The notes under the pieces are model-generated. The model ran no database searches. It saw only the letters and a list, made by a program, of their open reading frames with translations, and had not been told where the DNA came from. Made by a program: the position numbers and the translations under genes. A stretch of DNA of 31,781 bases from a virus. Position 1 is the first letter of the stretch. Each line of letters opens with the position of its first letter. Shown piece by piece: positions 7,346 through 31,781 of the stretch. Location of the stretch: IMG/VR virus record IMGVR_UViG_3300034198_010292, positions 1-31,781 of that record, one strand, 5' to 3'.

Positions 7346-7694
7346 TTATTTTTTTCAAAAGTTTTTCACATCTTTTCATATAATACTTTATTTTTATTTC
7401 GGAGTATTTATTATATATCTCTTTTTTTATTAGATTACTATAATAGTTGAATTTATCGTCTCGTGATAGTGCTGAGGCGAGAAAGAATATAAAGATTGAT
7501 AAGTATATGTTTCCTGTCCATATTAGAGTGATCCAAAAACTAACACATTTCAAACAGCCTGTTAGTAAATGAAGGAGACTTTGAATAAATCCGGCTGGTA
7601 TTTTATCAATAATCCATGTTAGTGGTAGGAATTGACTTATAATGTAGCCTAATCCCAAGATTTTTAGTATTAAAATTATATTTAATGTTATCAT
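7320..7694 (-). CDS. Small membrane protein with CxxC-SFW segment
   Basis: This 124-aa protein has a hydrophobic N-terminal helix (about 3-22, ITLNIILILKILGLGYII) and a second hydrophobic region (about 42-75) containing GCLKCVSFW, then a long Lys-rich cytoplasmic-type tail (about 80-124). The C-x-x-C-x-S-F-W pattern beside membrane helices recalls the DUF1360 family of phage and Bacillus membrane proteins, a weak resemblance. It could act in lysis (holin-like), in superinfection exclusion or in membrane anchoring, but nothing in the sequence decides among these. Confidence 0.65.
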   Translation of the reverse strand: MITLNIILILKILGLGYIISQFLPLTWIIDKIPAGFIQSLLHLLTGCLKCVSFWITLIWTGNIYLSIFIFFLASALSRDDKFNYYSNLIKKEIYNKYSEIKIKYYMKRCEKLLKKINDANGTIQ

Positions 7695-8243: not shown

Positions 8244-8810
8244 TTATTTTTTTATTTCATCGAAGATTTCTTTTCGGACGAATTGTAATGTGAAGTTGAC
8301 TGACTTTCTTATACTTTCGTAGCCTATATCTGTTTCTTTTGCTATTTCTGTTATTTTCATTCCTTCATAAAAATATAATTCAAATACGCATCTATTAAAA
8401 AAATAATTTACTGAGTTTGTGTTTATTTTAAAAAATTTATCAAGTATAGTATTCATATAAACTTTATCATCAAGAAGGTTTAAAATTATATCTTGTTCTG
8501 TTTTTTCTTCTTCTATAAATTCTGTTATATCATCATCAATTTCTATGTTATCTATTTCGCCGTGTTCTAACCAATACCCTTTTCTTATTGTTTTATTATT
8601 TAAATTCCATTGTATCCATATCATTCTTTTAAAATAATTTATTAGCCCGTTATTTTTATTTATTCTTCTAAATTTATTCCAGTTCATTTGTAGTAGTTTT
8701 TCAAATACATAGTGTTTTAAATCTTCACGATGTTTTTTCGGTATATACGACATTACTGTATTTACTTCTCTTGATAGATATAAATTTGATATAATTTGTG
8801 ATTTAGTCAT
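8244..8810 (-). CDS. Sigma-70-like RNA polymerase sigma factor
   Basis: This 188-aa protein has the size and layout of a minimal sigma factor. The N-terminal half (about 8-70) is helical with aromatic and basic residues (NYFKRMIWIQWNLNNKTIRK) where a region 2-like domain would contact the -10 element. The C-terminal part contains a clear region 4-type helix-turn-helix: FELYFYEGMKITEIAKETDI, then GYESIRKSVNFTLQFVRKEI (about 141-180). Phage sigma factors redirect host RNA polymerase to late promoters. The recurring AGTATTTT-N10-GATATATATA element (2506, 17536, 22869, 28701) is an obvious candidate target. It overlaps the upstream gene by 8 bases. Region 4 is well supported; region 2 is weak. 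Confidence 0.72.
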   Translation of the reverse strand: MTKSQIISNLYLSREVNTVMSYIPKKHREDLKHYVFEKLLQMNWNKFRRINKNNGLINYFKRMIWIQWNLNNKTIRKGYWLEHGEIDNIEIDDDITEFIEEEKTEQDIILNLLDDKVYMNTILDKFFKINTNSVNYFFNRCVFELYFYEGMKITEIAKETDIGYESIRKSVNFTLQFVRKEIFDEIKK

Positions 8811-9195
8811 TAATGATCCACTTTTCTTTTTGTTGTTGTATCAAATCTTTCATTATAAGAAGATTGGCTGCCGCCTCATACATTTCTTGTTCTTCTCTAA
8901 CTTTAATATATTCATCCAATACATCAATCAGGATTACAAAAGTTAGAGCAAATACTAATATATCTTCACATATATCAGCCATCAAATAAAAATACTTATT
9001 TACATATTCAGAGAAGTTTCTTTTTATATACCTTGTTCTGATTATTTTACAATCATGTCTTGATATTTCAATTACTAAGTCTTCCATCATTATTAAAATT
9101 TGGTTTCTTTGTAGTGTATCAAGTTGTATGTCTTTAAATCTTTGATAGATAGATTCCCACATTCTAATTAGTTTATCATCTTGTTTTGTTTTCAT
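8803..9195 (-). CDS. Hypothetical helical protein, 130 aa
   Basis: I do not recognise this protein. It is almost entirely alpha-helical, with a hydrophobic segment EDILVFALTFVILIDVLDEY near residues 77-96 that could be a membrane helix or a buried core helix. It overlaps the sigma-like gene by 8 bases, so the two are translationally coupled, and it may modulate it. A weak class II promoter-like element lies 3 bases upstream (9199-9226). Confidence 0.6.
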   Translation of the reverse strand: MKTKQDDKLIRMWESIYQRFKDIQLDTLQRNQILIMMEDLVIEISRHDCKIIRTRYIKRNFSEYVNKYFYLMADICEDILVFALTFVILIDVLDEYIKVREEQEMYEAAANLLIMKDLIQQQKEKWIIND

Positions 9196-9198
9196 ATA

Positions 9199-9228
9199 GT
9201 ATATATTGTTTAAAAAAAGTCACTTTTT
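9199..9228 (-). promoter_or_regulatory. Weak class II promoter-like element with palindrome
   Basis: On the minus strand AATATATAC (9207-9199) is preceded at the class II spacing of 12 bases by a degenerate upstream box (AAAGTGA, 4 of 7 matches to AAAACCA). The upstream part is also a perfect 15-base palindrome, AAAAAGTCACTTTTT (9214-9228), which would suit an operator. It lies just before the 130-aa gene and the sigma-like gene. Confidence 0.35.
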
Positions 9229-9242
9229 GACATATCGGTTTT

Positions 9243-9437
9243 TTATAAGGAACATTCACAGTTGTCTTCTAATTCACCACAATCAATACAGATTAGAGGC
9301 CTTCTTCCCCAAAGTTCGATGTGTTTTTTATCTTTACTATCAATAATTGACCATTCAAATATCTTTCCTTTCATATTTAAATCATAGATAGTTTTCATTA
9401 GTTCGTCATAATTCTTCGCTTTCTTTATTAGTTTCAT
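9243..9437 (-). CDS. Small zinc-binding-type protein, 64 aa
   Basis: MKLIKKAKNYDELMKTIYDL opens a short helical domain. The C-terminus RPLICIDCGELEDNCECSL holds four cysteines in a CxxC-x6-CxC pattern that should bind one zinc ion. It overlaps the tandem zinc-ribbon gene upstream by 32 bases. Two zinc proteins in a row, just ahead of a sigma-like gene, suggest a regulatory set, but this is context only. Confidence 0.65.
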   Translation of the reverse strand: MKLIKKAKNYDELMKTIYDLNMKGKIFEWSIIDSKDKKHIELWGRRPLICIDCGELEDNCECSL

Positions 9438-9981
9438 ATATTAGGTGTTTATTTTTTTCATAAATGTTTTTTAATTCTTTCAACATTAAATAGGCTTGAT
9501 AGTCTGGACTATAATTATCAAATAGTGTTTGGTATCCACAACATTCTAAATGTAGATTTAAAATTAAAAATATATCAATATCATTATGTAATCCGTGTTT
9601 TACTCTAATTAACAATAGTTTTATTTGTTGTATTGTTTCAGGTTCAATAATGATTGGTTTTCTTCTTGTTTGTGTTATTCCTGATTCTGCTTTACAGACA
9701 CGACATAATCCATGTTTAGATTTACCGAATAGTTTTATACCACACGTTATACAATTTTTAAAGTCGAGTAGGTGTCTTCTATAACATCGAGCACACATAC
9801 CTTTACCTTGATGTTTAATTTCTGTGAATGGAACTTCACATTCAATACATTCTGTGTATTTTATTCTTGGTGGTTTTTTTGGTAATAGTGCTTTTCTTCT
9901 TTTTTGGTAGCATCTACTACATATTTCTTGTTTTTTACTTTGTATTCTTTTTGCTACCTCATTACATACTTTACATACCAT
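9406..9981 (-). CDS. Triple zinc-ribbon protein
   Basis: In 191 aa there are three CxxC pairs-of-pairs at regular spacing: C3/C6 with C21/C24, C45/C48 with C63/C66, and C77/C80 with C93/C96. Each is a zinc ribbon or knuckle with Arg/Lys-rich linkers (YQKRRKALLPKKPPR, YRRHLL), which suggests binding to nucleic acid or RNA polymerase. The C-terminal half (about 110-191) is helical with a CC pair (LECCGYQ). It is the first gene after a minus-strand terminator (10019-10045) and has a strong class II promoter-like element directly upstream (9987-10014), so it begins its own transcript. It is a plausible transcription regulator; the exact role is unknown. Confidence 0.72.
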   Translation of the reverse strand: MVCKVCNEVAKRIQSKKQEICSRCYQKRRKALLPKKPPRIKYTECIECEVPFTEIKHQGKGMCARCYRRHLLDFKNCITCGIKLFGKSKHGLCRVCKAESGITQTRRKPIIIEPETIQQIKLLLIRVKHGLHNDIDIFLILNLHLECCGYQTLFDNYSPDYQAYLMLKELKNIYEKNKHLIYETNKESEEL

Positions 9982-9986
9982 ATTAT

Positions 9987-10014
9987 TTATATATTAGATA
10001 TCAAAAATGGTTTT
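9987..10014 (-). promoter_or_regulatory. Class II phage promoter-like element before zinc-ribbon gene
   Basis: On the minus strand this is AAAACCA (10014-10008), 12 bases, AATATATAA (9995-9987), then ATG at 9981. The same two boxes with the same 12-base spacing occur at 11530-11557 and 12139-12166. The element sits between a terminator and a gene start, which supports promoter function. Confidence 0.6.
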
Positions 10015-11511: not shown

Positions 11512-11529
11512 GTTTTCGTTTGTTTTTAT

Positions 11530-11557
11530 TTATATATTAACTTTTTAAACTGGTTTT
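11530..11557 (-). promoter_or_regulatory. Class II phage promoter-like element before the 56-aa gene
   Basis: On the minus strand this is AAAACCA (11557-11551), 12 bases, AATATATAA (11538-11530). It exactly matches the boxes and spacing at 9987-10014 and 12139-12166, and it lies 18 bases before ATG 11511. Confidence 0.6.
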
Positions 11558-11751: not shown

Positions 11752-12108
11752 TCACATTAAACCATGAGTCATCTTGACTTTTAGGTTTAACTTTACTTGG
11801 TAAGTATCTTTTGAAACCATTTCTGGTATGAAGGACCCGTTGTTAGGTATGAACAGAGCGGGATTTAATAAAAGATACATTCTATTAACCTGAAATAACT
11901 CCGGCCATAAAGAGCCGCCGGATTTATTTCTTGTTTTCATACACCCAGTAAGGCTGATCAGACCTATTCTGTCGTATGCGGGGTTGATTTTTAAATATCT
12001 GGCTCTGATATTAAGGAGCTCATACCCGGTTGATGAACCTTTTTGTCTTTCTAATTTAATTCTGATTTGCTCTTGATTTGCCTTCGTGTGCTTTCTAATG
12101 CCTTTCAT
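11752..12108 (-). CDS. Hypothetical basic protein, 118 aa, compositional outlier
   Basis: I do not recognise this protein. MKGIRKHTKANQEQIRIKLE starts a very basic protein rich in Lys and Arg, with a middle segment around GCMKTRNKSGGSLWPELFQV. Codons such as CCG, GGC, GCC and CGG are commoner than in nearby genes and the GC content is clearly higher by eye, which suggests a recent origin elsewhere. It follows a strong class II promoter-like element (12139-12166), and a hairpin cluster follows it. Coding status is likely but not certain, since the region could instead be a structured RNA element with an incidental frame. Confidence 0.5.
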   Translation of the reverse strand: MKGIRKHTKANQEQIRIKLERQKGSSTGYELLNIRARYLKINPAYDRIGLISLTGCMKTRNKSGGSLWPELFQVNRMYLLLNPALFIPNNGSFIPEMVSKDTYQVKLNLKVKMTHGLM

Positions 12109-12138
12109 TTATAATTTGCCTTTTATTGTTTCTTTATG

Positions 12139-12166
12139 TTATATATTCCGTTTTAAAAATGGTTTT
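12139..12166 (-). promoter_or_regulatory. Class II phage promoter-like element before the 118-aa gene
   Basis: On the minus strand this is AAAACCA (12166-12160), 12 bases, AATATATAA (12147-12139). It is identical in boxes and spacing to the copies at 9987-10014 and 11530-11557, and the next start codon is ATG 12108. Confidence 0.6.
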
Positions 12167-12190: not shown

Positions 12191-12544
12191 TTATTTTGAA
12201 AAATACTTATCATCATTATTCAAACAATAATTTATAGAATGTTTAGACATCCACTCTCTTTCTCTTGTACTTAAATATCTACTAAATGCCAATACGGCTG
12301 TTTTTCCCTTCACCTGGTGAGTTTTCTTCCAGTCAGACAATGAAACATATTCCAGGACTTTAAATCGTATGTCTGTGACTTTGTTTTCATTAAATTTTTC
12401 TTGTAGTTTAGGTGAGTGGTGTCTGTTTAGTTTTAGTGATGTGTAGTGGTTTGACCATCTTGAGAACACGTCAACACTTTTTCCAATATAGTAGTAGTCG
12501 TCAATTTCAATTATGTATATACCTGCGAGTTTAACCTTTAACAT
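12191..12544 (-). CDS. GIY-YIG endonuclease
   Basis: This 117-aa protein has the nuclease signature at its start: GIYIIE (8-13) and DYYYIGKS (16-23). These are followed by RWSNHYTSLKLNRHHSPKLQ, with the conserved Arg and His region, and by a later Glu-containing helix STREREWMSKH. Free-standing GIY-YIG proteins of this size in phages are usually homing endonucleases that copy themselves into related genomes. It lies at the divergent point between the minus-strand block and the plus-strand early operon. A partial class I-like element (GATATATAAT, 12557-12548) lies 3 bases upstream of the start. Confidence 0.85.
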   Translation of the reverse strand: MLKVKLAGIYIIEIDDYYYIGKSVDVFSRWSNHYTSLKLNRHHSPKLQEKFNENKVTDIRFKVLEYVSLSDWKKTHQVKGKTAVLAFSRYLSTREREWMSKHSINYCLNNDDKYFSK

Positions 12545-12583
12545 ACAATTATATATCTTTTTTTAAAGAAAGTTCGTAATTGA

Positions 12584-12663: not shown

Positions 12664-12695
12664 TTTGGTGGAATAGAATTGTTGCCGTATCTTTG
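12664..12695 (+). promoter_or_regulatory. Bacteroidota-type promoter of the plus-strand operon
   Basis: TTTG at 12664-12667, 20-base spacer, TATCTTTG at 12688-12695, exactly the -33/-7 consensus of Bacteroides and Flavobacterium housekeeping promoters. Transcription should start near 12700, giving a leader of about 16 bases before ATG 12716. Confidence 0.8.
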
Positions 12696-12715: not shown

Positions 12716-12940
12716 ATGAAAAGATTTAAAAGTTTTAATCAGGCACTTAACTACTTAAATAAGAATTTTGGTAGTGTATGGATTAACCACGATGTTGATT
12801 TCCAATTTTATATTAATAATATATGGTGTGAGGCTAATCATGGTTTTCGTATGGACCCTAATACAGATGAAGAGTATGAGTTGTTCCATAATTGTTGTAG
12901 TGATAAGGTTGCTGAGGAAATTAATTTGAGATTAACCTAA
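12716..12940 (+). CDS. Hypothetical early protein, 74 aa
   Basis: I do not recognise this protein. It is the first gene of the only plus-strand operon, directly behind a host-type promoter. It starts MKRFKSFNQALNYLNKNFGS, has aromatic-rich sequence (VDFQFYINNIWCEANHGFRM) and ends with a CC pair and a helix. As an early product of a phage it may act on the host, but nothing in the sequence shows how. Confidence 0.65.
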   Translation: MKRFKSFNQALNYLNKNFGSVWINHDVDFQFYINNIWCEANHGFRMDPNTDEEYELFHNCCSDKVAEEINLRLT

Positions 12941-12945
12941 TTAAA

Positions 12946-12977
12946 TTTGGTACGTTTAAATAATTGTATTATCTTTG
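12946..12977 (+). promoter_or_regulatory. Bacteroidota-type internal promoter
   Basis: TTTG at 12946-12949, 20-base spacer, TATCTTTG at 12970-12977: a perfect second copy of the -33/-7 pair. The predicted start of transcription falls at about 12981-12985, on or just before the next start codon (12982 or 12990), so the message would have almost no leader. Confidence 0.78.
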
Positions 12978-12981
12978 TTGT

Positions 12982-13260
12982 ATGAAAAAAATGGAGTTAG
13001 ATAGTAAGTTTAGTCAAGTAACAACTGGTAGTGTTGATATTAACGGTTTTAAATACAATACATTCAAGTTGGTTGAAAATGAAAGGTATATTGATTTGAA
13101 TAATCTTCAAAATTATACTATAAAACAATTAATTAGTATTTATGGATATCCGATTAGAGGAGCTAAGAAGGCTGATTATATTAATTTTATATTAAAGAAT
13201 AAGTCTAATGAAATTAAATCTGAGAATAGAAGTGTAATCTTAAAAAATTTAGGTATATGA
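12982..13260 (+). CDS. Small early protein with SAP-like segment
   Basis: ATG 12982 (MKKMELDSKF) or ATG 12990 (MELDSKF) are the plausible starts, because the promoter at 12946-12977 ends just before them; a longer frame from 12964 would begin inside the promoter. Of about 92 aa, residues 42-72 (LQNYTIKQLISIYGYPIRGA then KKADYINFIL) resemble the SAP helix-extended-helix DNA-binding motif, including the Gly-x-Lys-Lys turn. The stop overlaps the next start in ATGA fashion. The SAP assignment is tentative. Confidence 0.65.
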   Translation: MKKMELDSKFSQVTTGSVDINGFKYNTFKLVENERYIDLNNLQNYTIKQLISIYGYPIRGAKKADYINFILKNKSNEIKSENRSVILKNLGI

Positions 13261-13448
13261 ATAAAGAGTATTTTTTAAAAATGTTAGATGATTATAATGG
13301 ACAACACGCACCATCTGACGAATTAACCAAGGAGTGGTTTGAAAAAGATTTAAATGATTGTTGGAGAATATATGAAACTTTCGGTAGAGATGAGAAATTA
13401 AATCTGTGGGTTTCTTTTTTAAATGGATGTAAAACAGGCAAATTTTAG
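13257..13448 (+). CDS. Hypothetical early protein, 63 aa
   Basis: I do not recognise this protein. It starts by overlapping the preceding stop by 4 bases (MNKEYFLKMLDDYNGQHAPS) and is a mostly helical, acidic protein with several Trp residues. The next gene begins one base after its stop. It is the third gene of the plus-strand operon. Confidence 0.62.
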   Translation: MNKEYFLKMLDDYNGQHAPSDELTKEWFEKDLNDCWRIYETFGRDEKLNLWVSFLNGCKTGKF

Positions 13449-13449
13449 T

Positions 13450-13656
13450 ATGAAAAAATGTGTTATTTGTAAATCACAAATTATAGGATTTGGACATAAT
13501 CCATATCCAATCTTCAACAAAGGACGTTGTTGTGAGTATTGTAATTCTGATTATGTTTTTAGTATAAGAATGTTAGAGAAGATTAATCCGTCACTTGCTG
13601 AGTCGGTATTAAAACAATTTCATCTTGGCAGAAAAATCAATAGTATTGGTATATAA
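13450..13656 (+). CDS. Small zinc-ribbon protein of a common phage type
   Basis: ATG 13450 (MKKCVICKSQIIGFGHNPYP) follows the upstream stop by one base and is preferred to an in-frame ATG at 13423. In 68 aa it has CVIC near the start and GRCCEYCNSDYV in the middle, forming a four-Cys zinc site, with the G-x-G-x-x-x-x-P signature and SIRMLEKI tail. Short proteins of this pattern are widespread in phage early regions as unnamed genes. It is the last gene before the terminator cluster at 13661. Confidence 0.72.
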   Translation: MKKCVICKSQIIGFGHNPYPIFNKGRCCEYCNSDYVFSIRMLEKINPSLAESVLKQFHLGRKINSIGI

Positions 13657-14108: not shown

Positions 14109-14261
14109 TTAATACTCACTTAAATTATCTTCATGTCTCCAATCATCTTCTGTTTTAGACTTGATTAATGGAACCACAATCTTTTTCTGTTTCTTTTTTA
14201 AAAATTTTAAAAGTTTTACAACGTTTTCAATATTTACTCCTCTCTCGTTTTCTTTTGTCAT
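14109..14261 (-). CDS. Hypothetical basic protein, 50 aa
   Basis: The frame runs from ATG 14261 (MTKENERGVNIENVVKLLKF) to TAA at 14111-14109. The middle is very basic (LLKFLKKKQKKIVV) and the end acidic. The ATG overlaps the stop of the HNH gene (ATGA), and the next gene follows after 3 bases, so it fits the operon. It is unrecognised; the basic helix could bind membrane or nucleic acid. Confidence 0.55.
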   Translation of the reverse strand: MTKENERGVNIENVVKLLKFLKKKQKKIVVPLIKSKTEDDWRHEDNLSEY

Positions 14262-14707
14262 ATTACATGATACTTTTCTTTTGCTTTCAGATAGGCTGCT
14301 CTCGCTTCTTCTTCTGTATTGAACATTCCTAAGTAGATTCCTTTTTTATTAATAGTTATTGAAGCTTGCCATTTATTTCTTTTTTTGTGAAAGTGAAAGC
14401 CTTTACCAAATCTATTCCATTGATTTTGTTGTCTTGTTACTGATCTTAAATTACTAATTCTGTTATCATGTCTAACACAATTAATGTGATCAATTTCAGT
14501 AACAACCTCTTTATTTACCCAATACCAAATAAAATGGTGACCTTTTATATAAATTTGTTCGTCTTCATGTTTAAATGAAAATAATTTATATCCTTGTGAG
14601 CATATACCTTTTAATTCAATCAATTTTTTATTAAAAATTTTACCCGTTTCAGGATCACATGTATATCCTTTTTCTACTGCTAATTTCATTCTATCTATTC
14701 TTTCCAT
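14258..14707 (-). CDS. HNH homing endonuclease with AP2-like DNA-binding domain
   Basis: This 149-aa protein carries the HNH nuclease core in VVTEIDHINCVRHDNRISNL (about 68-87, with D-H, N and N/H residues), followed by RSVTRQQNQWNR. The C-terminal GFHFHKKRNKWQASITINKK, then GIYLGMFNTEEEARAAYLKA, is the AP2/integrase-like DNA-binding fold typical of phage homing endonucleases. It is inserted between the head-tail connector and the membrane-protein genes, a usual site for a selfish endonuclease. Together with the GIY-YIG gene it brackets the early operon. Confidence 0.9.
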   Translation of the reverse strand: MERIDRMKLAVEKGYTCDPETGKIFNKKLIELKGICSQGYKLFSFKHEDEQIYIKGHHFIWYWVNKEVVTEIDHINCVRHDNRISNLRSVTRQQNQWNRFGKGFHFHKKRNKWQASITINKKGIYLGMFNTEEEARAAYLKAKEKYHVI

Positions 14708-14736
14708 AGTTATTATATAAATAAAATGTTATTTTG

Positions 14737-15339
14737 TTAGAGACTTATTGGTCCGCCATTGGGTCCCGAGCAACATCCACCTTCACCCCAGAATGAATTA
14801 CCACGTCTTCCACGAGAACCTCTTCCGTATTTTGATGTGTATATCATATTGAACCCTGTTAATGTTGCAGGTGCGATTCTTTCAACTCCGTTTAATTGGT
14901 AGTATTCTAAAAATTCTCCTGGGTTATTGATTATGTATTCTCTTACACGCTGATCATAGAAACCCGAGTCATTCATTTGTAGACTTTTTAACCATTTCAA
15001 GTCGCCTGTTGTTACGCCTGTTGCGTGATCTGATGTTTGTTGGACGATAGCTTTGTTCGTTATCTTCCAATTAATGAATGGAATACTTTCATATATTGTC
15101 CATTCTAAAAGTGCCGGTTGAACGTAATTATTTAAAAGTGTTTGGTAGAATGTTGAATTGAATGTTCCTGAAGCAGCTTGATTCATTAAACTTTCATAAA
15201 GGTCTTGACCTAATATAATTTGAGTATGTAGGTCTTGTGCCTTTCTGATATAGTATTGTAATAGTTTATCATCTACATTTGATTCCACAATACTTCTTTC
15301 TTTGATATATTGTGTTGTTATAAATTCTATAAAAGCCAT
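14737..15339 (-). CDS. Head-tail connector protein
   Basis: This 200-aa protein lies directly after the portal gene. The N-terminal helical part (ESNVDDKLLQYYIRKAQDLH, then TQIILGQDLYESLMN) follows the gp6-like adaptor plan seen in Bacteroidota phages (DUF6712-like), in which the protein forms a ring under the portal. The C-terminus is Gly/Arg-rich and ends with GEGGCCSGPNGGPISL, an unusual flexible tail. The call rests on position and the helical pattern. Confidence 0.65.
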   Translation of the reverse strand: MAFIEFITTQYIKERSIVESNVDDKLLQYYIRKAQDLHTQIILGQDLYESLMNQAASGTFNSTFYQTLLNNYVQPALLEWTIYESIPFINWKITNKAIVQQTSDHATGVTTGDLKWLKSLQMNDSGFYDQRVREYIINNPGEFLEYYQLNGVERIAPATLTGFNMIYTSKYGRGSRGRRGNSFWGEGGCCSGPNGGPISL

Positions 15340-16969: not shown

Positions 16970-17377
16970 TTATATTCTGTCCATGTTATTGTATGTAAGA
17001 ACTGTTCCTGATGATTGAGTGTAACTTAAATATTGTGAATATGTTGCATTTAAAACAAGTATTCCGTTTTCTACTTCTTTTACTGCATTATTTAAATTTA
17101 AATCGTATGGATTATTCATTTGATAAACAAAGTATTGATATTCACCTGCTGGTATATTTATAATACCTTGTGTTAGTCCTACTGGTGTTGCAATAGATAC
17201 TGTAAATGAATTATAGTACCAAGGTGTAGTTGAACTATCATCTTGATAGAATACTGTTTCAACTAAACTTTGTTTATTTACAAGTTTCCAAGTAAAATAA
17301 GGATTTACAAGGTTAGTTGAGTTTTCATAAAGTGTAACATTCAATAAGTTACTTTGTGTTGGTGATAGTATCAACAT
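16970..17377 (-). CDS. Probable virion neck or tail accessory protein, 135 aa
   Basis: MLILSPTQSNLLNVTLYENS starts a beta-rich protein with the segment NPYFTWKLVNKQSLVETVFY, then DDSSTTPWYYNSFTVSI and IPAGEYQYFVYQM. Proteins with this YFTWK...YYNxFTVS pattern are familiar to me from structural regions of Bacteroidota phages and are immunoglobulin-like in appearance; no precise function is established. It overlaps the 60-aa gene upstream by 29 bases and precedes the portal. Confidence 0.55.
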   Translation of the reverse strand: MLILSPTQSNLLNVTLYENSTNLVNPYFTWKLVNKQSLVETVFYQDDSSTTPWYYNSFTVSIATPVGLTQGIINIPAGEYQYFVYQMNNPYDLNLNNAVKEVENGILVLNATYSQYLSYTQSSGTVLTYNNMDRI

Positions 17378-17531
17378 TTTTTTCTACTACTTTTTTATCT
17401 TCTTCAAATGCATCTGGATAAGCCTTTGAATATATATTGTAAAGTGATTCACTTACATATCTTAAAATCACATCTGAACCACTAATTGGACAATTTACTT
17501 TTGTGTCTAAATATTCTATTTTAATCTTCAT
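17349..17531 (-). CDS. Hypothetical protein, 60 aa
   Basis: MKIKIEYLDTKVNCPISGSD starts a small alpha/beta protein with the segment VILRYVSESLYNIYSKAYPD and an acidic tail. It is the first gene after a terminator (17577-17606) and has an excellent class I element 4 bases upstream (17536-17563), so it begins the portal-connector transcript. The function is unknown. Confidence 0.6.
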   Translation of the reverse strand: MKIKIEYLDTKVNCPISGSDVILRYVSESLYNIYSKAYPDAFEEDKKVVEKNVDTITNTK

Positions 17532-17535
17532 ATAT

Positions 17536-17563
17536 TATATATATCTTTTTTGTGAAAAATACT
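17536..17563 (-). promoter_or_regulatory. Class I phage promoter-like element of the portal operon
   Basis: On the minus strand this is AGTATTTT (17563-17556), 10 bases, GATATATATA (17545-17536), identical in both boxes and spacing to 2506-2533. It lies between a terminator and the first gene of the portal transcript, the clearest context for promoter function. Confidence 0.68.
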
Positions 17564-17576
17564 TTTTTTTTCATAT

Positions 17577-17606
17577 AAAAAAACCCGAAGCATATGCCCG
17601 GGTTTT
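17577..17606 (-). terminator. Rho-independent terminator after the tail-tube gene
   Basis: On the minus strand AAAACCCG (17606-17599) reads into CGGGTTTT (17587-17580 on the other arm), an 8-bp stem with an 11-base loop holding GCATATGC, followed by T's (A's at 17577-17583). It closes the transcript ending at 17635 and is immediately followed by a new promoter-like element. Confidence 0.85.
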
Positions 17607-17634
17607 CCTCTTACACTATTTATAGTTCTTGGAA

Positions 17635-18238: not shown

Positions 18239-19216
18239 TTATTTTCTCTTGTAGATTACATATTGAGGGTAAGCTACTTGAATACCTTGTTTCCAAGCAA
18301 TTCTTGTCATAATAGTTTTTGTTGGGAAATCAAAATACATATTAAAGTTAGAACTGTCTGAGATTAAATCTGTACCGAAGGCGATGTTTTGTCTTGGTGT
18401 TAAGATCGCTGTTCCTTTAACATAGTTAAGACCTCTTGTTGCTACAACTCTCACGTTTGGTGAACCTGGATAGATGAAATCCCATGTGTTTGGATCTGCA
18501 CCCCAGCTGATGTGGAATTGATTTAATTGTCTTAACGCAAATGTTAATGTTTGGAAGTCAGCGTAACCCAATAAACAGATTAATTCTTCTGCTAAGATGT
18601 CTGGTTGATTTACGATCGCTGTTTGGATCAAGTTATCAACAACTGAAATTGCGTTTGTTGATGTAAATGCTCCTGTTCCAGAGTAAGTTGATGTGATTAC
18701 AGACGCTGTTGCTGAAGTTGAATCCAAGATGTAAAGTAAACCATTACATTGTGTTAATGAAGAAGAGTATGTTCCTGAAACTGCTCCTGCGATCGCTAAG
18801 TCTTCTACTCCTGCTGCAACTTTTGCTTGCATGTCAGCTACGTAAGTTTTTGCGAATACTTCTGGGTCTAAAGTTTCACCGTTAGAACCTGCTTTCATTA
18901 ACATACCGAACCAGTATTGTTCAAGGTCTTCAAGACATACTGCTGTCTCAACTTTTAGACGACATACATCAAGATTTCTTTGTGCTGGTGTGAATGAACC
19001 AGTTGCATTGATTGTACCACCAAGGTTACAACCACCAGCTTGGATAACTACGTTTGAAGTTGAGTAGTTGATCGCTACTGAATTTTTTACTCCTTCAATA
19101 GTATTGATATACTTAAAAAGAGTTGGAGCAAGAACTGACTGTCTTAATAGAGGTTGTGACAACTGATCTGTATAAGATGTTAGTGATGCTAAATAAGGTG
19201 TAATTGCTATTGCCAT
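18239..19216 (-). CDS. Major capsid protein (HK97-fold)
   Basis: This 325-aa protein is of typical size. It starts MAIAITPYLASLTSYTDQLS and shows the alpha/beta pattern of HK97-type shells: a central helix EELICLLGYADFQTLTFALR (spine/A-domain region) and a C-terminal TPRQNIAFGTDLISDSSNFN then PTKTIMTRIAWKQGIQVAYP, as in capsid proteins from Bacteroidota phages. Codons are richer in GC-ending and preferred types than in neighbouring genes, as expected of a highly expressed gene. It lies directly after scaffold and protease genes, and a stable stem-loop follows. Confidence 0.85.
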   Translation of the reverse strand: MAIAITPYLASLTSYTDQLSQPLLRQSVLAPTLFKYINTIEGVKNSVAINYSTSNVVIQAGGCNLGGTINATGSFTPAQRNLDVCRLKVETAVCLEDLEQYWFGMLMKAGSNGETLDPEVFAKTYVADMQAKVAAGVEDLAIAGAVSGTYSSSLTQCNGLLYILDSTSATASVITSTYSGTGAFTSTNAISVVDNLIQTAIVNQPDILAEELICLLGYADFQTLTFALRQLNQFHISWGADPNTWDFIYPGSPNVRVVATRGLNYVKGTAILTPRQNIAFGTDLISDSSNFNMYFDFPTKTIMTRIAWKQGIQVAYPQYVIYKRK

Positions 19217-19245: not shown

Positions 19246-19986
19246 TTAGTTTGATATAGTAAATGAACCTCCGAAACCAGGACTTGTTCTTGCCTTAGCC
19301 ATTAATTCATTCATTTCGTTTGCATTAAAGTTGTGTACTTTTTCTGTGTTTTCAGTTTTAACTTTTGAAAAACCTTTATAGTTCACATAATCTTTAATTT
19401 CATCCATTATGTTTCCAGAACCAGAGATTTTAGATTTAATTCCTTCTGAACTTTCTCTATTCAACTCTTCTTTTGTTTGTGAGAACATTTTAGACATTTT
19501 GTTATTTAGTTTATTCATTTCAGTTTCCTGTTTAGACATTAAACCTTGTAACATTTCTGTGATTTTTTCGAGTGCTGACTCTAAAGCCGCAATTCTTTCT
19601 TCAACTCCTGAAGCTGCATCTTCCATGTCTGTTACGTTTGTTGGTTCAGCCATAGTTTCTGCTTCTGGCGCTGCTGTTTCTTCTGGACTTTCAGTTCCTT
19701 CTTCTTCAGAAGCTGCGATTTCAGCAATAATTCCATCAACGATTTCAATTGTGTTACCGTCAAGTAATACATATTCTCCATCTTCACACGGTGTCAATTC
19801 ACCAGCCTCATTGATGTGGAAACAAGGAGTTCCAACTTTCAATTCGTCGCCTTCATTTATGTAAATTGTTTCACCACCAGTTGTTTCAAGAGCCGTATTT
19901 GCGAACTTTTGAGATTTGAATTTCAAATAGTTTTCATAAACTGCTTTCAATTCTTCTGCTTTCTTTTTAATTTCAGTTACATTCAT
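19246..19986 (-). CDS. Capsid assembly scaffold-like protein
   Basis: This 246-aa protein begins with a helix (MNVTEIKKKAEELKAVYENY), then a small beta-domain (INEGDELKVGTPCFHINEAG to about residue 90), a highly acidic Ala/Glu/Pro-rich linker (about 92-125) and a strong coiled coil (EERIAALESALEKITEMLQG, about 128-175). The C-terminal end SPGFGGSFTISN may bind the capsid. Its place between the XkdF-type protease and the capsid gene is that of a scaffold. It is probably cleaved by the protease. Confidence 0.72.
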   Translation of the reverse strand: MNVTEIKKKAEELKAVYENYLKFKSQKFANTALETTGGETIYINEGDELKVGTPCFHINEAGELTPCEDGEYVLLDGNTIEIVDGIIAEIAASEEEGTESPEETAAPEAETMAEPTNVTDMEDAASGVEERIAALESALEKITEMLQGLMSKQETEMNKLNNKMSKMFSQTKEELNRESSEGIKSKISGSGNIMDEIKDYVNYKGFSKVKTENTEKVHNFNANEMNELMAKARTSPGFGGSFTISN

Positions 19987-20038
19987 ATTTTAACTTTTTA
20001 TATTTTATTCAGATATATCTATATATACCTGATTTTTT

Positions 20039-20704
20039 TTATTTCCTTATTTGATCTAAAAAATTTAGGAAATCATCATCGATGTCGAGCCATCCAATTT
20101 CTTTTAGGACTGAGAACCATTCTTCATCTACTTTACTAAATCTGTCTCCTTTGCCTTTAAATATAATATCCATTATACCTTCAATACTAAATCCGTATTT
20201 GCCTTCTTCTTTAACTCCTTTGTTCCAAAAATCTTTATCTTCTACTTTAACTTCCATAAACCATGTTCCTACTGGTAGGTCATATCCATAAAATTTTGAC
20301 TTATCGTAGTAACTATCTTCAACGATCCATGATCCAACTATGTAGGCATCTACCATATTCTCACTGTGTTCATCATTGATTACTCCTTGTGGTTTATCTT
20401 TTAAATTTTTATTAAAGATTTCAACCATTTTAGCAATAGTTTCTTTTGTAAAGTAGCCCATATATAAATTACCGTTTTCATCTTTACGTTTAATTTTGAT
20501 GTTCGGTATCATAGCTGGACCAGCAATTATTTGTTTTTCTTCATCTGAGAACATTTGATACTCTATTTCTTTTGAAAAGTATTTACCTTTAAGTTCGATC
20601 GCTGGATTAGCTGTTAGAGCAATTTTAGATAGTGCTCTTTCATCTTCCTCATCAATAATAAATTCAAATACTGGTAGTTGATTCTCGTTGTAAATTTTTT
20701 TCAT
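20039..20704 (-). CDS. Prohead protease, XkdF-type
   Basis: This 221-aa protein contains KDKPQGVINDEHSENMVDAY (about 95-114) with the catalytic-type His, then YIVGSWIVEDSYYDKSKFYG, and LPVGTWFMEVKVEDKDFW followed by KYGFSIEGIMD with the catalytic-type Ser (GFSIEG, about 174-179). These are the signature blocks of the XkdF / Peptidase_S78_2 family, serine proteases that mature phage procapsids by cutting scaffold and capsid N-termini. Its location directly before the scaffold and capsid genes supports this. Confidence 0.85.
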   Translation of the reverse strand: MKKIYNENQLPVFEFIIDEEDERALSKIALTANPAIELKGKYFSKEIEYQMFSDEEKQIIAGPAMIPNIKIKRKDENGNLYMGYFTKETIAKMVEIFNKNLKDKPQGVINDEHSENMVDAYIVGSWIVEDSYYDKSKFYGYDLPVGTWFMEVKVEDKDFWNKGVKEEGKYGFSIEGIMDIIFKGKGDRFSKVDEEWFSVLKEIGWLDIDDDFLNFLDQIRK

Positions 20705-20719
20705 ATTTATTTTTATTTT

Positions 20720-22864
20720 TTAACCTCCAAGGTAACTTCTACTTTCAATAACACCAACTTTGTTTTGAACTGATGTTATGTCACTTTCTAATACATAAAC
20801 TTTCGTTGAACCATAATTCGCAGATGCACCTGTTTGTGCCTTACCTAAACTAATAAATGTTGAAGGTGTAAAGGCGTTTTCCTGACTTGTCGTATCTGTT
20901 GGTCCAGGTGGTGGTGTTGGAACATCTGGTGGTGACCATCCGCCAAATTGTGTTGATGCAATTTTAGCAATTTGAATAGCGCCTGTTGCTGCTGCCAGTG
21001 CGACTGCAATCGGATTGGGTAATGATTTTGTCACTGCCAGTGCTGTATTCACTACTGCTGATGATAATGAAAAGGCTTTATTTATTTTAAATTGTTTTCT
21101 TGCTTCTCTTTCATTTTTTGCTGTTGCTCCTTCAAATAAACTACCTAATACACCAATAGCTTCAGATGCCATTTGTAATTTTGAGGCAAGTGATTCTCTT
21201 TGTGTCTCTTCATCTATTTTAACGTATTTATCAGTTATTTCTTTTAATTCTCTACCTTTAGCTTCTTCAATAATTTTTAATTGTTCTTTATTGTCACCAG
21301 CCATTGTTAATAGTCTAAAATACTTATCATTAACTGCTTGCTCTTCTCTTTGTTGTTCAGTTAATCCAGCTTGAAAATTTTCTTCACTTAATAATTCTAA
21401 CTCGTCTAAATAAGCATTTATACCATCAGCTTCATATTGTCTTGCTTTATCAGCCGCGTCTTTTTCTAACTTTGCTCTTTTATCAACGAATTCTTGTGTT
21501 ATCTGAGTAATCTTAGCTTCACTCGTTTTTTTGATTTCTTCTTCTAATTGAGCTTTTTGTTCTTTCGTTGCTTTTGTATTTTTTAGATCATCTAATTGTC
21601 TTTGAGCTTCAGTTTCTACTTGTTTTTTAGCTCTCGCCTCTTCATTTTGAATAGTTGATATTTGTAAGTCTTCACGTTTTCTTTGTTCAGATAAAATTTG
21701 ATCTGAAAGATCTGTTAGTTTATCTGCAGTATCGTCAGTTGCATCATTTACACTTTTTGAATTCTCTACATATTTTTTACCACTATTAGTTAATCCATCA
21801 ATTTCAACAGACGCTTCTTGTGATTTTAATCCAAGAAATTTTAAAGCATCTGAATTTTCATCTAATGCCTTCTTTTTCTTAACCAATTCTTCACGGGCAT
21901 ATTCAACATTCATTACTGTTATGCCCGCGTAGTTTTCATTATATTTCTTTAAAACGTCATTATAGTTCTTTTGAGCTTCATTAAGTTCTTGTTGCTTTTT
22001 TTGTCTTTTACCAAGAGCGTATTGTATCTTGTCCTCATTAGCCTTTAAATTATATTCTGCTATTTTAAATTTAATATAGTTGTCAACTTCTAAATTGAGT
22101 TGTTTTTGAAAGTCTTTCTCATCTTTTAGATTTTTTAATGTTGTACCATATTGTTTATTAATTTCTTTAATTAAATCTTTTCTTTCTTTTGAATTTTGAT
22201 TAGTACTTTTGAGACGTGCTATAAGTGTTACAAAAGAAACTGATTCTTTTGATATGTAATCTTGTTGTTTTTTTAACTCTTCGTTTAATTTCTTTTGTTC
22301 TTCTGCTGCTTTTTTAGCTTCTTCACTTTCTTCACCCCATTTACTTATTAAATACCCTACAGCTGTTATTAAAAGTCCTATTCCTGATACTGCAAATACT
22401 TTACTTGCTGTTGTCATTGTACCAAATGTGTTAGATACTACTGCTCCTAATGTTTTGAAGGCATCTTTTGCCTCTAATACACCATTTATACCTTGTGTTA
22501 GAGCCATAGCTGACTGCACTTTCAAAAGTGTTTGTTCAAATTCTTTACTATCAACACCCATTAATCCAAGTGCTCCTTGATAGGCTTGAAATCCATTCAA
22601 TACTCCACCAATAGAATTCGATAGTGATTTAAATTTAGCATCTGGATTAAAGGCATCTGTTAATAATTTAGCGTCACCTATTCTATCAGCCAAATCTGCC
22701 GCCTTTCTCGCTGCGTTTGCCGCCTCTACTGATGTAGCACCAAATTGATCTGATAAAGCAGCCACCTCAGCCTGTGCTTGTCTTAATTGTGCCTTTAAAC
22801 TACCTACTGTGTTGATAGCTCCCTCACCATTTATATTTAGTCCTATATTTACATTTGCATCCAT
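20720..22864 (-). CDS. Tape measure protein
   Basis: This 714-aa protein starts MDANVNIGLNINGEGAINTV and continues with Ala-rich helices (about 20-100), a hydrophobic segment VFAVSGIGLLITAVGYLISK (about 158-178), long coiled coils rich in Lys/Glu/Gln (about 180-580), and a hydrophobic C-terminal part (VVNTALAVTKSLPNPIAVAL then AAATGAIQIAKIAS). This is the usual plan of tape measure proteins, which set tail length and enter the host envelope during DNA injection. At about 0.15 nm per residue of helix it would predict a tail near 100 nm. A looser class I element lies 4 bases upstream. The chaperone gene is not adjacent. Confidence 0.85.
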   Translation of the reverse strand: MDANVNIGLNINGEGAINTVGSLKAQLRQAQAEVAALSDQFGATSVEAANAARKAADLADRIGDAKLLTDAFNPDAKFKSLSNSIGGVLNGFQAYQGALGLMGVDSKEFEQTLLKVQSAMALTQGINGVLEAKDAFKTLGAVVSNTFGTMTTASKVFAVSGIGLLITAVGYLISKWGEESEEAKKAAEEQKKLNEELKKQQDYISKESVSFVTLIARLKSTNQNSKERKDLIKEINKQYGTTLKNLKDEKDFQKQLNLEVDNYIKFKIAEYNLKANEDKIQYALGKRQKKQQELNEAQKNYNDVLKKYNENYAGITVMNVEYAREELVKKKKALDENSDALKFLGLKSQEASVEIDGLTNSGKKYVENSKSVNDATDDTADKLTDLSDQILSEQRKREDLQISTIQNEEARAKKQVETEAQRQLDDLKNTKATKEQKAQLEEEIKKTSEAKITQITQEFVDKRAKLEKDAADKARQYEADGINAYLDELELLSEENFQAGLTEQQREEQAVNDKYFRLLTMAGDNKEQLKIIEEAKGRELKEITDKYVKIDEETQRESLASKLQMASEAIGVLGSLFEGATAKNEREARKQFKINKAFSLSSAVVNTALAVTKSLPNPIAVALAAATGAIQIAKIASTQFGGWSPPDVPTPPPGPTDTTSQENAFTPSTFISLGKAQTGASANYGSTKVYVLESDITSVQNKVGVIESRSYLGG

Positions 22865-22868
22865 ATTC

Positions 22869-22896
22869 TATATATATCTTTTATTTCAATTTTACT
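22869..22896 (-). promoter_or_regulatory. Class I-like element before the tape measure gene
   Basis: GATATATATA (22878-22869) is intact with the same distance to the start codon; the upstream box at the fixed 10-base spacing is AGTAAAAT (5 of 8 matches to AGTATTTT). It is a weaker member of the set. Confidence 0.45.
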
Positions 22897-28325: not shown

Positions 28326-28697
28326 TTATTTTTTTATTATATAACTACTTGCGAATGAACCAAGTTGTTTATCAAATTTTTCTATTTCGGTGATTATTTC
28401 AATTTTAGCAATCTTTGAAATTAAATCTTTTTCTAAATCTTCAAATTTTTTACTCTTCAATGTATCTTTTGTGATGTTATAGGCTTTTATATATTTAGTT
28501 CCATCATCTAAAAATTTATAGTAATAAACTGCTCCAAGTTTTATTTTAATTTTACCTTTTTCTAAAACGAACTCAGTTGATATACTTCGTATCATTGTTC
28601 CAGTCTTAATCAACTTTTTAATTCTAATTTCTTCTCTGATTAGATTTTTAAACTTTACATTTGCTCGTCTGATTTCACTTACTATTTTAGAGTTCAT
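28326..28697 (-). CDS. HK97 gp10-like neck / tail completion protein
   Basis: ATG 28697 (MNSKIVSEIRRANVKFKNLI) is preferred to an in-frame ATG at 28703, which lies inside the class I element. In 123 aa it has an N-terminal helix, then KLIKTGTMIRSISTEFVLEK and KLGAVYYYKFLDDGTKYIKA, the sequence flow (T/SGxL/M..S...YYxxLDxGTK) of gp10-like proteins that sit at the head-tail joint. The C-terminal half is helical and basic. The call rests on this pattern and the tail context. Confidence 0.62.
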   Translation of the reverse strand: MNSKIVSEIRRANVKFKNLIREEIRIKKLIKTGTMIRSISTEFVLEKGKIKIKLGAVYYYKFLDDGTKYIKAYNITKDTLKSKKFEDLEKDLISKIAKIEIITEIEKFDKQLGSFASSYIIKK

Positions 28698-28700
28698 ATA

Positions 28701-28728
28701 CATATATATCTTTTTTATCTAAAATACT
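28701..28728 (-). promoter_or_regulatory. Class I phage promoter-like element before the neck gene
   Basis: On the minus strand this is AGTATTTT (28728-28721), 10 bases, GATATATATG (28710-28701), 3 bases before ATG 28697. The upstream box overlaps the stop codon of the ATP-grasp gene. Confidence 0.62.
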
Positions 28729-30051: not shown

Positions 30052-30372
30052 TTATACTTTAATACCTTTTGTTGTTGTCCACTTTTCAATTTGATTAATT
30101 TCATCTTGTTTATCATCAAAATGAAAGTCAATGTTCATACTATACAACTTTTGATATTTCCATCTGCCGTTTGTGAAGATTACTCTGTTTCTCGGAATAC
30201 CTAATTCATCAGCCACTTTATAAACATCTTCACTCTCATCAGAAAATCTACGAGTTATAATCCATATAGTATTTCTAACTTTTAACTTACGAGCAATATC
30301 CTGTATTTCTGGTCTTTCTAAACAACCATCAAAATCGAAACTTATGTTTTTATTAATTAAATTTAGATTCAT
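30052..30372 (-). CDS. Small HAD-like phosphatase
   Basis: This 106-aa protein shows the haloacid dehalogenase motifs in order: DFDGCL with nucleophile-type D13 and D15, IIT (T40) followed by RR, basic residues K72/K75 after FTNGRWK, and the acidic pair D86/D87 in FHFDDKQDEI. It has no cap domain, as in small HAD phosphatases and polynucleotide-type phosphatases of phages. The ATG overlaps the fibre stop (TAATG), so it is coupled to the fibre gene. The ATP-grasp gene follows after 52 bases; the pair may act together. Confidence 0.78.
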   Translation of the reverse strand: MNLNLINKNISFDFDGCLERPEIQDIARKLKVRNTIWIITRRFSDESEDVYKVADELGIPRNRVIFTNGRWKYQKLYSMNIDFHFDDKQDEINQIEKWTTTKGIKV

Positions 30373-31781
30373 TATGTAGCAATTATTTTTTGACTATTAA
30401 TTATTGGGAAGTAAGTGAATAAATTATCACTAACACCACCTCCTGTCATTTCAATAATTGTTCTCACACCAACATTCTCATAATATATTCCAGTCGTGTT
30501 ATTATAATTTTGAAGGCTTCTTGATATTAATGTTACTTGTAAATCTCCATAGTCATTGTATATACAAGAACCATCACCTCCACCGTACTGATATATACTT
30601 CCAGGGTTCGTTTCAGCATTAAACTGACAATCTGTTATTACAAAGAATATAGTACCTGTTTGAGCACATATACAATGAATAGCATTGTTATTTGAAATTC
30701 CTATATTTCCTTGATTAAACAAAGTAGTAAATTCACTTCTCAACAGGATACATCTATTACTATGTCTATCTGAGTTATAGAATGTTATATTAGCATTCCA
30801 CTCCATATTCGTATTATATGTATTTCCTTTTTGATTATTAAAATTCATACAGAATAAAAAACTATCTTTAATAAAAAGTGTTCCATAGTCATCACAATAA
30901 ATGTTACTTAACCACCAACCTTGGTCAAATTCGGATGATATATAAGGCTCATTATCAGTTCTAAAAATTACTCTATCTAACATAAGATTTCCATTTATAC
31001 CTATATTCATACTCGCTTGTCCTTTAGTATCTGGTGTATTTACCCAACTAATCGGCTGAGAGAATAAAGTAATATTTTCAAATGTTATATTTGTATAGTA
31101 ATTTGATTGTAATAAGTAGTTTTCATGGTTATAGAAAGCTTCAGTATTCCATACTTGTTCTATACTATTCGTTTGATCTTCACTTGTTACTTCAACTCTA
31201 ATCATTTTAGTAGCATCAAGATCTCCATATATTTTAAAGTATGCTCCACTTGTAATGCCAGATGTTTGATCTGGAGCATTCCATTTTATATGGACACCTG
31301 GTTTCAAATGTAATTTAAAGTTAGATATAATTATCAGCGACTGAGTTTCATTATAATCATAAAATCTTGACGGTACCGTTAAATTATTCCAATTCGCGTT
31401 TTCAGCACCAATCGTAGCAGGCCATACTTCAATTACACCGTTAGTGACACCAGCAGTCATACCAGCCGGATCATTATTTAATCCACTCGTTCCATAAAAG
31501 GCACCAGCGATTGTAGCAAATGGTTTATCAAATCTTCCTATTAAACCAGTAGAGTCATCACCATTCGGATGTACAAAACAAGTATTCGGATAGGCAACTA
31601 ACAAAGAGCCTCCACTCGCAGATGTTCCACTCGTTCCATTTACACCGTTAGCACCAGCAGGACCACTTGTTCCTGATGTTCCTCTCGTTCCAGATGTACC
31701 TGACGTAAATCCAGGAGGTGTTGTACCACTCGTTCCCGCTGTTCCATTTATTCCTGATGTACCTCTTGTTCCAGATGTACC
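30372..31781 (-). CDS. Collagen-like tail fibre, C-terminal part with beta-helix tip (enters from right edge)
   Basis: The frame is open from the edge (about 57 codons of Gly-Thr-Ser-type repeat, 31781-31611) through to TAA at 30374-30372, 469 codons in the window. After the repeat, SLLVAYPNTCFVHPNGDDST starts a globular part of about 410 aa. Its Asn/Thr-rich strands (YYTNITFENITLFSQPISWV, MNIGINGNLMLDRVIFRTDN, NNAIHCICAQTGTIFFVITD) look like a right-handed parallel beta-helix of the pectate-lyase kind, common in receptor-binding tips. A TTG at 31604 is in frame but lies after the repeat and is not the start. Frame continuity with 1-1658 across the terminal repeat indicates one protein of about 1,013 aa. 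Confidence 0.82.
   Translation of the reverse strand, partial: GTSGTRGTSGINGTAGTSGTTPPGFTSGTSGTRGTSGTSGPAGANGVNGTSGTSASGGSLLVAYPNTCFVHPNGDDSTGLIGRFDKPFATIAGAFYGTSGLNNDPAGMTAGVTNGVIEVWPATIGAENANWNNLTVPSRFYDYNETQSLIIISNFKLHLKPGVHIKWNAPDQTSGITSGAYFKIYGDLDATKMIRVEVTSEDQTNSIEQVWNTEAFYNHENYLLQSNYYTNITFENITLFSQPISWVNTPDTKGQASMNIGINGNLMLDRVIFRTDNEPYISSEFDQGWWLSNIYCDDYGTLFIKDSFLFCMNFNNQKGNTYNTNMEWNANITFYNSDRHSNRCILLRSEFTTLFNQGNIGISNNNAIHCICAQTGTIFFVITDCQFNAETNPGSIYQYGGGDGSCIYNDYGDLQVTLISRSLQNYNNTTGIYYENVGVRTIIEMTGGGVSDNLFTYFPIINSQKIIAT
31611..31781. repeat. GTS-type collagen-like coding repeat at right edge
   Basis: This is the same 9-base coding repeat as at 1-237: Gly-Thr-Ser with Gly-Thr-Arg, Gly-Ile-Asn, Gly-Pro-Ala and Gly-Val-Asn units. 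Its last 26 bases repeat the first 26 bases of the window exactly. Confidence 0.85.
31756..31781. repeat. Terminal direct repeat (matches 1-26)
   Basis: These 26 bases equal positions 1-26, with position 31781 corresponding to 26. Codons in both genes begin at that base, so joining the ends keeps the frame. Confidence 0.7.

Follow-up and report, generated by a model that had tools for sequence, protein, structure and literature searches.

The minus-strand sequence AGTATTTTTCACAAAAAAGATATATATA at 17536-17563 stands 4 nt before the ATG of gene 17349-17531 (start 17531) and recurs before other genes of the same virus. This arrangement raises the question of whether the element is a promoter and, if it is, which factor recognizes it. 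The account developed here, which as a whole we judge to be reasonably probable, is that it belongs to a set of sigma-type phage promoters that serve the late (structural) genes, are recognized by an ECF-type sigma factor that the phage itself encodes and give rise to leaderless or nearly leaderless messages.

Gene content and host-type promoters

The window (the whole stretch of DNA analysed) is the entire virus record of 31,781 bases, and nearly all of its genes are on the minus strand. Both ends of the record share a 26-nt repeat inside a collagen-like gene with GTSGTS repeats (1-1658 and 30372-31781, minus strand). Circular permutation of a nearly complete genome is therefore probable, and one long fibre gene probably spans the junction of the record. 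TerL, the portal protein, the tape measure protein and the head maturation protease are recognizable, and the 325-aa protein encoded at 18239-19216 is, by its position, probably the major capsid protein. DNA-level close relatives were not found in the phage collection, and a query of bacterial genomes with the major capsid protein gave no match, so no host is named.

The host is probably a member of the Bacteroidota, and the window contains host-type promoters of the form TTG-N20-TATCTTTG. One lies on the plus strand at approximately 12665-12695 (position 12692 is within its -7 box), about 20 nt before 12716-12940, and a second plus-strand site of this form has its -7 box near 12974. These sites precede the only plus-strand genes of the window (12716-13656), which are probably early or regulatory. 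Similar sites occur in clusters in three related genomes (G002, G003 and G008).

A repeated element before putative late genes

The pattern AGTATTTT-N10-GATATATATA, referred to as class I, occurs in four copies on the minus strand, across which AGTATTTT is kept at a fixed spacing. Besides AGTATTTTTCACAAAAAAGATATATATA these are AGTATTTTACAAAAAAAAGATATATATA at 2506-2533, 6 nt before the ATG of 1894-2499 (start 2499); AGTATTTTAGATAAAAAAGATATATATG at 28701-28728, which carries one change; and the looser AGTAAAATTGAAATAAAAGATATATATA at 22869-22896, 4 nt before the ATG (22864) of the tape measure gene 20720-22864. The initial annotation had located all four copies correctly. Its spacing of 3-6 nt to the start codon holds as given for three of them; the copy at 28701-28728 overlaps the first ATG of 28326-28703 (28703), and a distance of 3 nt fits only the second in-frame ATG (28697). 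The first ATG is part of the promoter box itself, which makes 28697 the probable true start of this gene (ATG TAT ATG); with that start all four copies are intergenic and in coding-strand orientation, and 3-6 nt separate them from a start codon. The four genes had been labelled chaperone, pre-portal, neck and tape measure. A PHROG match supports the tape measure gene, and 17349-17531 does lie two genes before the portal gene, but the labels chaperone and neck are not borne out, as no family match was obtained for the product of 1894-2499 or for that of 28326-28703. The genes behind class I copies are taken to be late on the basis of gene content.

A weight matrix built from the four class I sites themselves was scanned across both strands of the window (63,508 positions). 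The four copies are its four best matches, with scores of 35.6, 34.7, 33.8 and 28.7; the next match scores 18.0 and lies within a gene, on the coding strand (7412-7439), and the one after it scores 10.1. The scan found no class I copy on the other strand, where the best match scores 7.6 compared with 28.7-35.6 for the class I copies. Equal frequency inside genes or on the other strand, which had been named as grounds for rejecting the element, was thus not observed. When each site was left out in turn, it ranked third or fourth of the 63,508 positions, behind the sites building the matrix. Local shuffles of 500-bp blocks gave a mean maximum score of 11.0 and 0.05 matches scoring at least 15, versus 5 observed. 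With up to 3 mismatches allowed, there are 6 class I matches in the window versus a mean of 0.46 and a largest count of 3 in 100 dinucleotide shuffles.

It could be argued that intergenic DNA in an AT-rich genome (31% GC) yields TATATA runs through its composition, or that the copies are sites with another role, such as operators or sites for replication or packaging. The exact class I pattern is indeed present in 14 stretches of the viral collection, mostly within open reading frames and with no start codon nearby, and these matches in unrelated contigs are mostly due to chance. Judging from where they lie, the exact class I sequence is specific to this phage. Within the window, the shuffle controls, the single orientation and the placement close to start codons speak against chance or composition, an explanation that we regard as extremely improbable, and it is virtually certain that class I is a real, oriented element.

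Primary promoters of the Bacteroidota, which are probably those of the host, carry TTTG or TAnnTTTG (PMC6847099, PMC9723704). Two plus-strand genes of the window use such promoters, whereas the class I copies have neither motif and their box is unlike it, in agreement with the initial annotation, which had reported no match to the Bacteroidota consensus. A generic sigma70 scan of the window was uninformative, its matches being not above those in shuffles. De novo motif search by EM merged classes I and II into one motif in the window and returned mostly a generic A-rich start context in several relatives, and a box-anchored pairwise comparison was used in its place.

Weaker copies and a further box are also found on the minus strand. 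AGGAAATAAAAAAAATCAGGTATATATA at 20020-20047 is a weak class I-like element with its box 41 nt before the ATG of 19246-19986. The class I-like box AAAAAAAGATATATAAT (12548-12575) lies 11 nt from the ATG of a GIY-YIG-like gene (12191-12544), and the box TATATAAT (14712-14739) lies 12 nt from that of an HNH endonuclease gene (14258-14707), so that each of these two minus-strand genes has a TATATA box of its own 11-12 nt before its start.

Related elements in the middle region

A second class, AACCATTTTT-N8/9-TATATAA, is found on the minus strand in the middle region. AAACCATTTTTGATATCTAATATATAAA at 9986-10013 lies directly after a terminator (10046-10023) and before 9406-9981, AAACCATTTTTAAAACGGAATATATAAC at 12138-12165 has its box 37 nt before the ATG of 11752-12108, and AAACCAGTTTAAAAAGTTAATATATAAA lies at 11529-11556. 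A looser class II-like copy, AAGTGACTTTTTTTAAACAATATATACT at 9198-9225, stands before 8803-9195, the immediate upstream neighbour of the sigma gene discussed below, and so in front of the operon to which that gene belongs. When IMG/VR was scanned for exact copies of the class II sequence AACCATTTTNNNNNNNNAATATATAAATA, only four stretches were returned, three of which are the same locus of one relative (G003/L009), before a gene. The box is common to the middle and late classes; the upstream element is not.

TATATA boxes in related genomes

The window was compared with 13 relatives from IMG/VR, and in these 14 genomes, with genes oriented to the coding strand, intergenic segments containing TATATA were counted against dinucleotide shuffles. 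TerL identity among the relatives reaches 72%, the closest being G002 (71-72%), and the 325-aa protein is 87% identical to that of G001. The window has 10 such segments where 2.2 are expected (shuffle maximum of 5), and excesses are also found in G001 (8 versus 1.9), G004 (8 versus 2.8), G006 (11 versus 2.5), G007 (10 versus 2.7), G011 (12 versus 3.7) and G012 (9 versus 3.2); in each of these genomes the count exceeds that of every shuffle. By the same comparison there is no excess in G002 (3 versus 3.2) or G013. TATATA is palindromic and AT-rich, and lone boxes may be chance occurrences.

In several lineages a repeated upstream element of their own is in register with the box, namely TGAAAAAAAAA-N7-AATCTATTATATAATA in G007, CCACGCACATAAGAGGATATAAATA in G012, CTTAACAAATAAAC-N8/9-TATATATT in G005 and G006, and TGAGTAA with TATATACT in G011. 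The distance of the upstream element from the box differs between phages. A middle-type element, GGGGAGACAA...TAATATATA, recurs in G001, G007 and G012. At the place orthologous to the 17536 copy, G001 has both a terminator and a TATATATA box. The same genome (L077/L078) carries a 34-nt upstream sequence twice in identical form, at coding-strand positions 21994 and 22413; both copies end in AAAAGGGGGACAAAACTTTTT before TATATATATG and belong to the middle element shared with G007 and G012. Orthologous genes show only weak conservation of where the box lies (p = 0.04), which is not taken as main support. The exact class I sequence belongs to one phage, but the pairing of a TATATA box with an upstream element that is particular to each lineage and kept at a fixed spacing is a design of the whole family.

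The position of the element next to start codons allows another reading, in which it acts in the mRNA as an A/U-rich site for ribosome recruitment, the phylum being one that lacks Shine-Dalgarno sequences. The element is near the ATG and A-rich, as are initiation regions of the Bacteroidota (PMC6847099), and its distance to the ATG has a strong peak at 10-13 nt. The relatives supply the main argument for a promoter in DNA rather than a translation signal, since the spacing within the element is constant while one and the same element lies at different distances from the ATG (11 and 48 nt in G005, 13 and 40 in G006, 8 to 32 in G007 and 10 to 39 in G011). Conservation moreover extends some 20 nt beyond the box on its upstream side, and the element is present at only a minority of genes. 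One copy, as first described, comes immediately after a terminator, a place at which transcription has to begin anew; this strong intrinsic terminator is at 17570-17614 on the minus strand (-16 kcal/mol, z -4.0), before the 17536 copy. A translation signal is accordingly quite improbable, and class I is very likely a promoter that acts at the level of DNA. The proposal that these are phage-specific promoters is well supported by the statistics, orientation and position of the copies, by the terminator beside one of them and by the analogous elements in relatives.

A candidate sigma factor

The minus-strand gene at 8244-8810 encodes a 188-aa sigma-like protein with a predicted ECF-type layout (sigma2 plus sigma4), which the initial annotation had put forward as a natural candidate for recognizing the element. 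Its matches to Pfam sigma families are weak and below curated cut-offs (Sigma70_r4_2, E of 2.6e-4). An AlphaFold model (pLDDT of 74 and pTM of 0.45, with the domain arrangement uncertain) is nearest to ECF sigma factors over both domains, with E. coli sigma E (1or7) aligning over 136 residues at a Z-score of 8.3; the sigma4 domain aligns with region 4 of SigR over 65 residues (Z of 8.3, rmsd of 2.1). The alignment with sigma E and SigL covers both domains, as a sigma2 joined to sigma4 without sigma3 would, but it has a large rmsd that reflects domain placement, and the sequence signal for sigma2 is weak. In structural terms, then, the protein is probably an ECF-type sigma factor.

As a single query against viral contigs the protein found no relatives, but an iterated search over the open reading frames of the related genomes identified full-length homologues in 9 of the 13 (G001, G002, G003 and G005-G010). 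G013 gave a partial match only, and the search found no full-length sigma in the incomplete contigs of G004, G011 and G012, though TATATA boxes are present there. In G011 (L093), a 104-aa protein encoded at 12777-13091 aligns solely to sigma region 4 (15.3 bits) and is syntenic with the full-length sigma gene of relatives. The sigma gene is located behind a TATATA box directly in G001 and one gene downstream of it in the window and G007. Between the window and G001 the sigma factors are 33% identical and the 325-aa proteins 87% identical; other early genes have diverged too, so faster divergence of sigma than of the 325-aa protein is suggestive only.

The candidacy of 8244-8810 is thus favoured by its ECF-type structure and its wide distribution in relatives, while its tie to the element is imperfect: G002 has the sigma factor and lacks the TATATA excess, and three relatives have boxes and no full-length sigma. 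The varied distances between upstream element and box in different phages are likewise not simply explained by a single sigma4 geometry.

Boxes in relatives without a full-length sigma, and upstream elements at varied distances, would fit promoters read by a host factor, either host sigma A with a phage activator or an alternative sigma of the host, such that the upstream box is an activator site and TATATA a tolerated -10 element. Middle promoters of T4 are used in this manner, by MotA together with the host sigma70. The upstream elements, which vary in distance from the box and differ between phages, would suit an activator, as would a box shared by middle and late classes whose upstream elements differ. 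Sigma A of the Bacteroidota, however, needs TAnnTTTG (PMC6847099), which is found in this phage but at other genes, most relatives possess a sigma factor, and any activator in the window is only putative. Reading by a host factor is for these reasons unlikely. Recognition of class I by a phage sigma is somewhat probable, and 8244-8810 is the best candidate for that role.

A different kind of reader would be a single-subunit RNA polymerase encoded by the phage. Promoters of the T7-like or mitochondrial type have an AT box that adjoins the start site, and the class I element is similarly short and asymmetric, ends at the presumed start and is phage-specific in sequence. Two proteins of the window, 1277 and 528 aa long and without a family assignment, might be considered for such a role. 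Searches of window proteins in PHROGs and/or Pfam, covering all the large ones and all larger unidentified ones, found no RNA polymerase gene, T7-like or other, and the terminal repeat suggests that the record is nearly complete. A polymerase of this kind is very improbable.

Predicted transcription starts and possible leaderless messages

In the mechanism proposed for reading by the phage sigma, GATATATATA would take the role of the -10 box and AGTATTTT, whose centre is about 16 nt upstream of TATATA, that of a -35-like element. The ECF-type sigma factor would take the place of sigma A on the RNA polymerase of the host. As a related middle-class TATATA box (9205) precedes the sigma gene, the promoters could form a cascade that leads from host sigma to the middle genes, then to the phage sigma and finally to the late genes.

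Transcription may begin about 5-8 nt after the box, at or beside the A of the ATG, which would make the messages leaderless or nearly so. In 28 of the 75 cases pooled over the genomes, 10-13 nt separate the first T of the box from the ATG, where about 2.7 such cases are expected. Only 3 cases lie at 14-17 nt, and a second, broad group occupies about 18-32 nt. This bimodal distribution suggests that both leaderless and leadered messages are made, and indirectly favours the nearly leaderless messages proposed in the initial annotation. In phiEco32, transcription starts 6-8 nt after the promoter element (PMC8948821), and with such a start and a -10-like geometry the 10-13 nt group would be leaderless or nearly so. 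Leaderless mRNAs amount to only 5.5% in F. psychrophilum (PMC9723704), and transcripts of F. johnsoniae are mostly leadered (PMC6847099). On the box-to-ATG distances we lean slightly towards leaderless starts for the phage genes.

Comparison with known systems

The T4 late sigma factor gp55 has about 185 residues, compared with 188 in the protein encoded at 8244-8810. It too is a small phage sigma, and T4 late promoters have an 8-bp TATA box at the -10 position; they lack an upstream element, whereas here AGTATTTT is conserved at a fixed spacing, and gp55 ends in a segment that binds the sliding clamp rather than in sigma4 (PMC2988020). Salmonella phage 7-11 is, with phiEco32 and T4, among the closest precedents; it is a phage whose sigma factor SaPh711_gp47 has a region 4 and whose late promoters are bipartite and phage-specific (GTAAtg-16-aCTA), precede late genes and vary in sequence among related phages (PMC8948821). 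The two systems differ in sequence, spacing, genome and host, the phage 7-11 pair is proven experimentally where the present one is predicted, and boxes that abut start codons and a middle class belong to the phage described here. The phiEco32 sigma factor gp36 acts at middle and late promoters (tAATGTAtA) from which RNA starts 6-8 nt downstream (PMC8948821), but it lacks region 4 and uses a single element, in contrast to the sigma4-like domain and bipartite element here. By analogy with the 7-11 and phiEco32 pairs (PMC8948821, PMC4331800), class I would be a new case of late promoters at which a phage sigma initiates transcription.

Implications

The strategy itself is known. Late promoters of Bacteroidota phages, or of this phage family, were not found in the open-licence literature, and as far as that literature shows the strategy is new for the family. 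The discovery of further phages with other, undescribed sigma-promoter pairs was predicted in the phage 7-11 study (PMC8948821), and the window provides a concrete promoter set in phages with early promoters of the Bacteroidota type. The promoters also flag one gene start, that of 28326-28703, as likely misassigned. The relatives constitute a natural series of sigma proteins and candidate elements that bears on how sigma4 changes specificity and may be a source of orthogonal promoters for Bacteroidota genetics.

More tentatively, these small phages, which probably infect Bacteroidota, may share a modular system in which a constant TATATA box is combined with an upstream element that changes fast and an ECF-like sigma factor that diverges along with it, and in which many boxes are positioned to give leaderless messages, rare in flavobacterial hosts, for the late capsid and tail genes. 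If the messages are leaderless, the late genes would exemplify leaderless translation that works efficiently in a phylum where leaders are the general rule.
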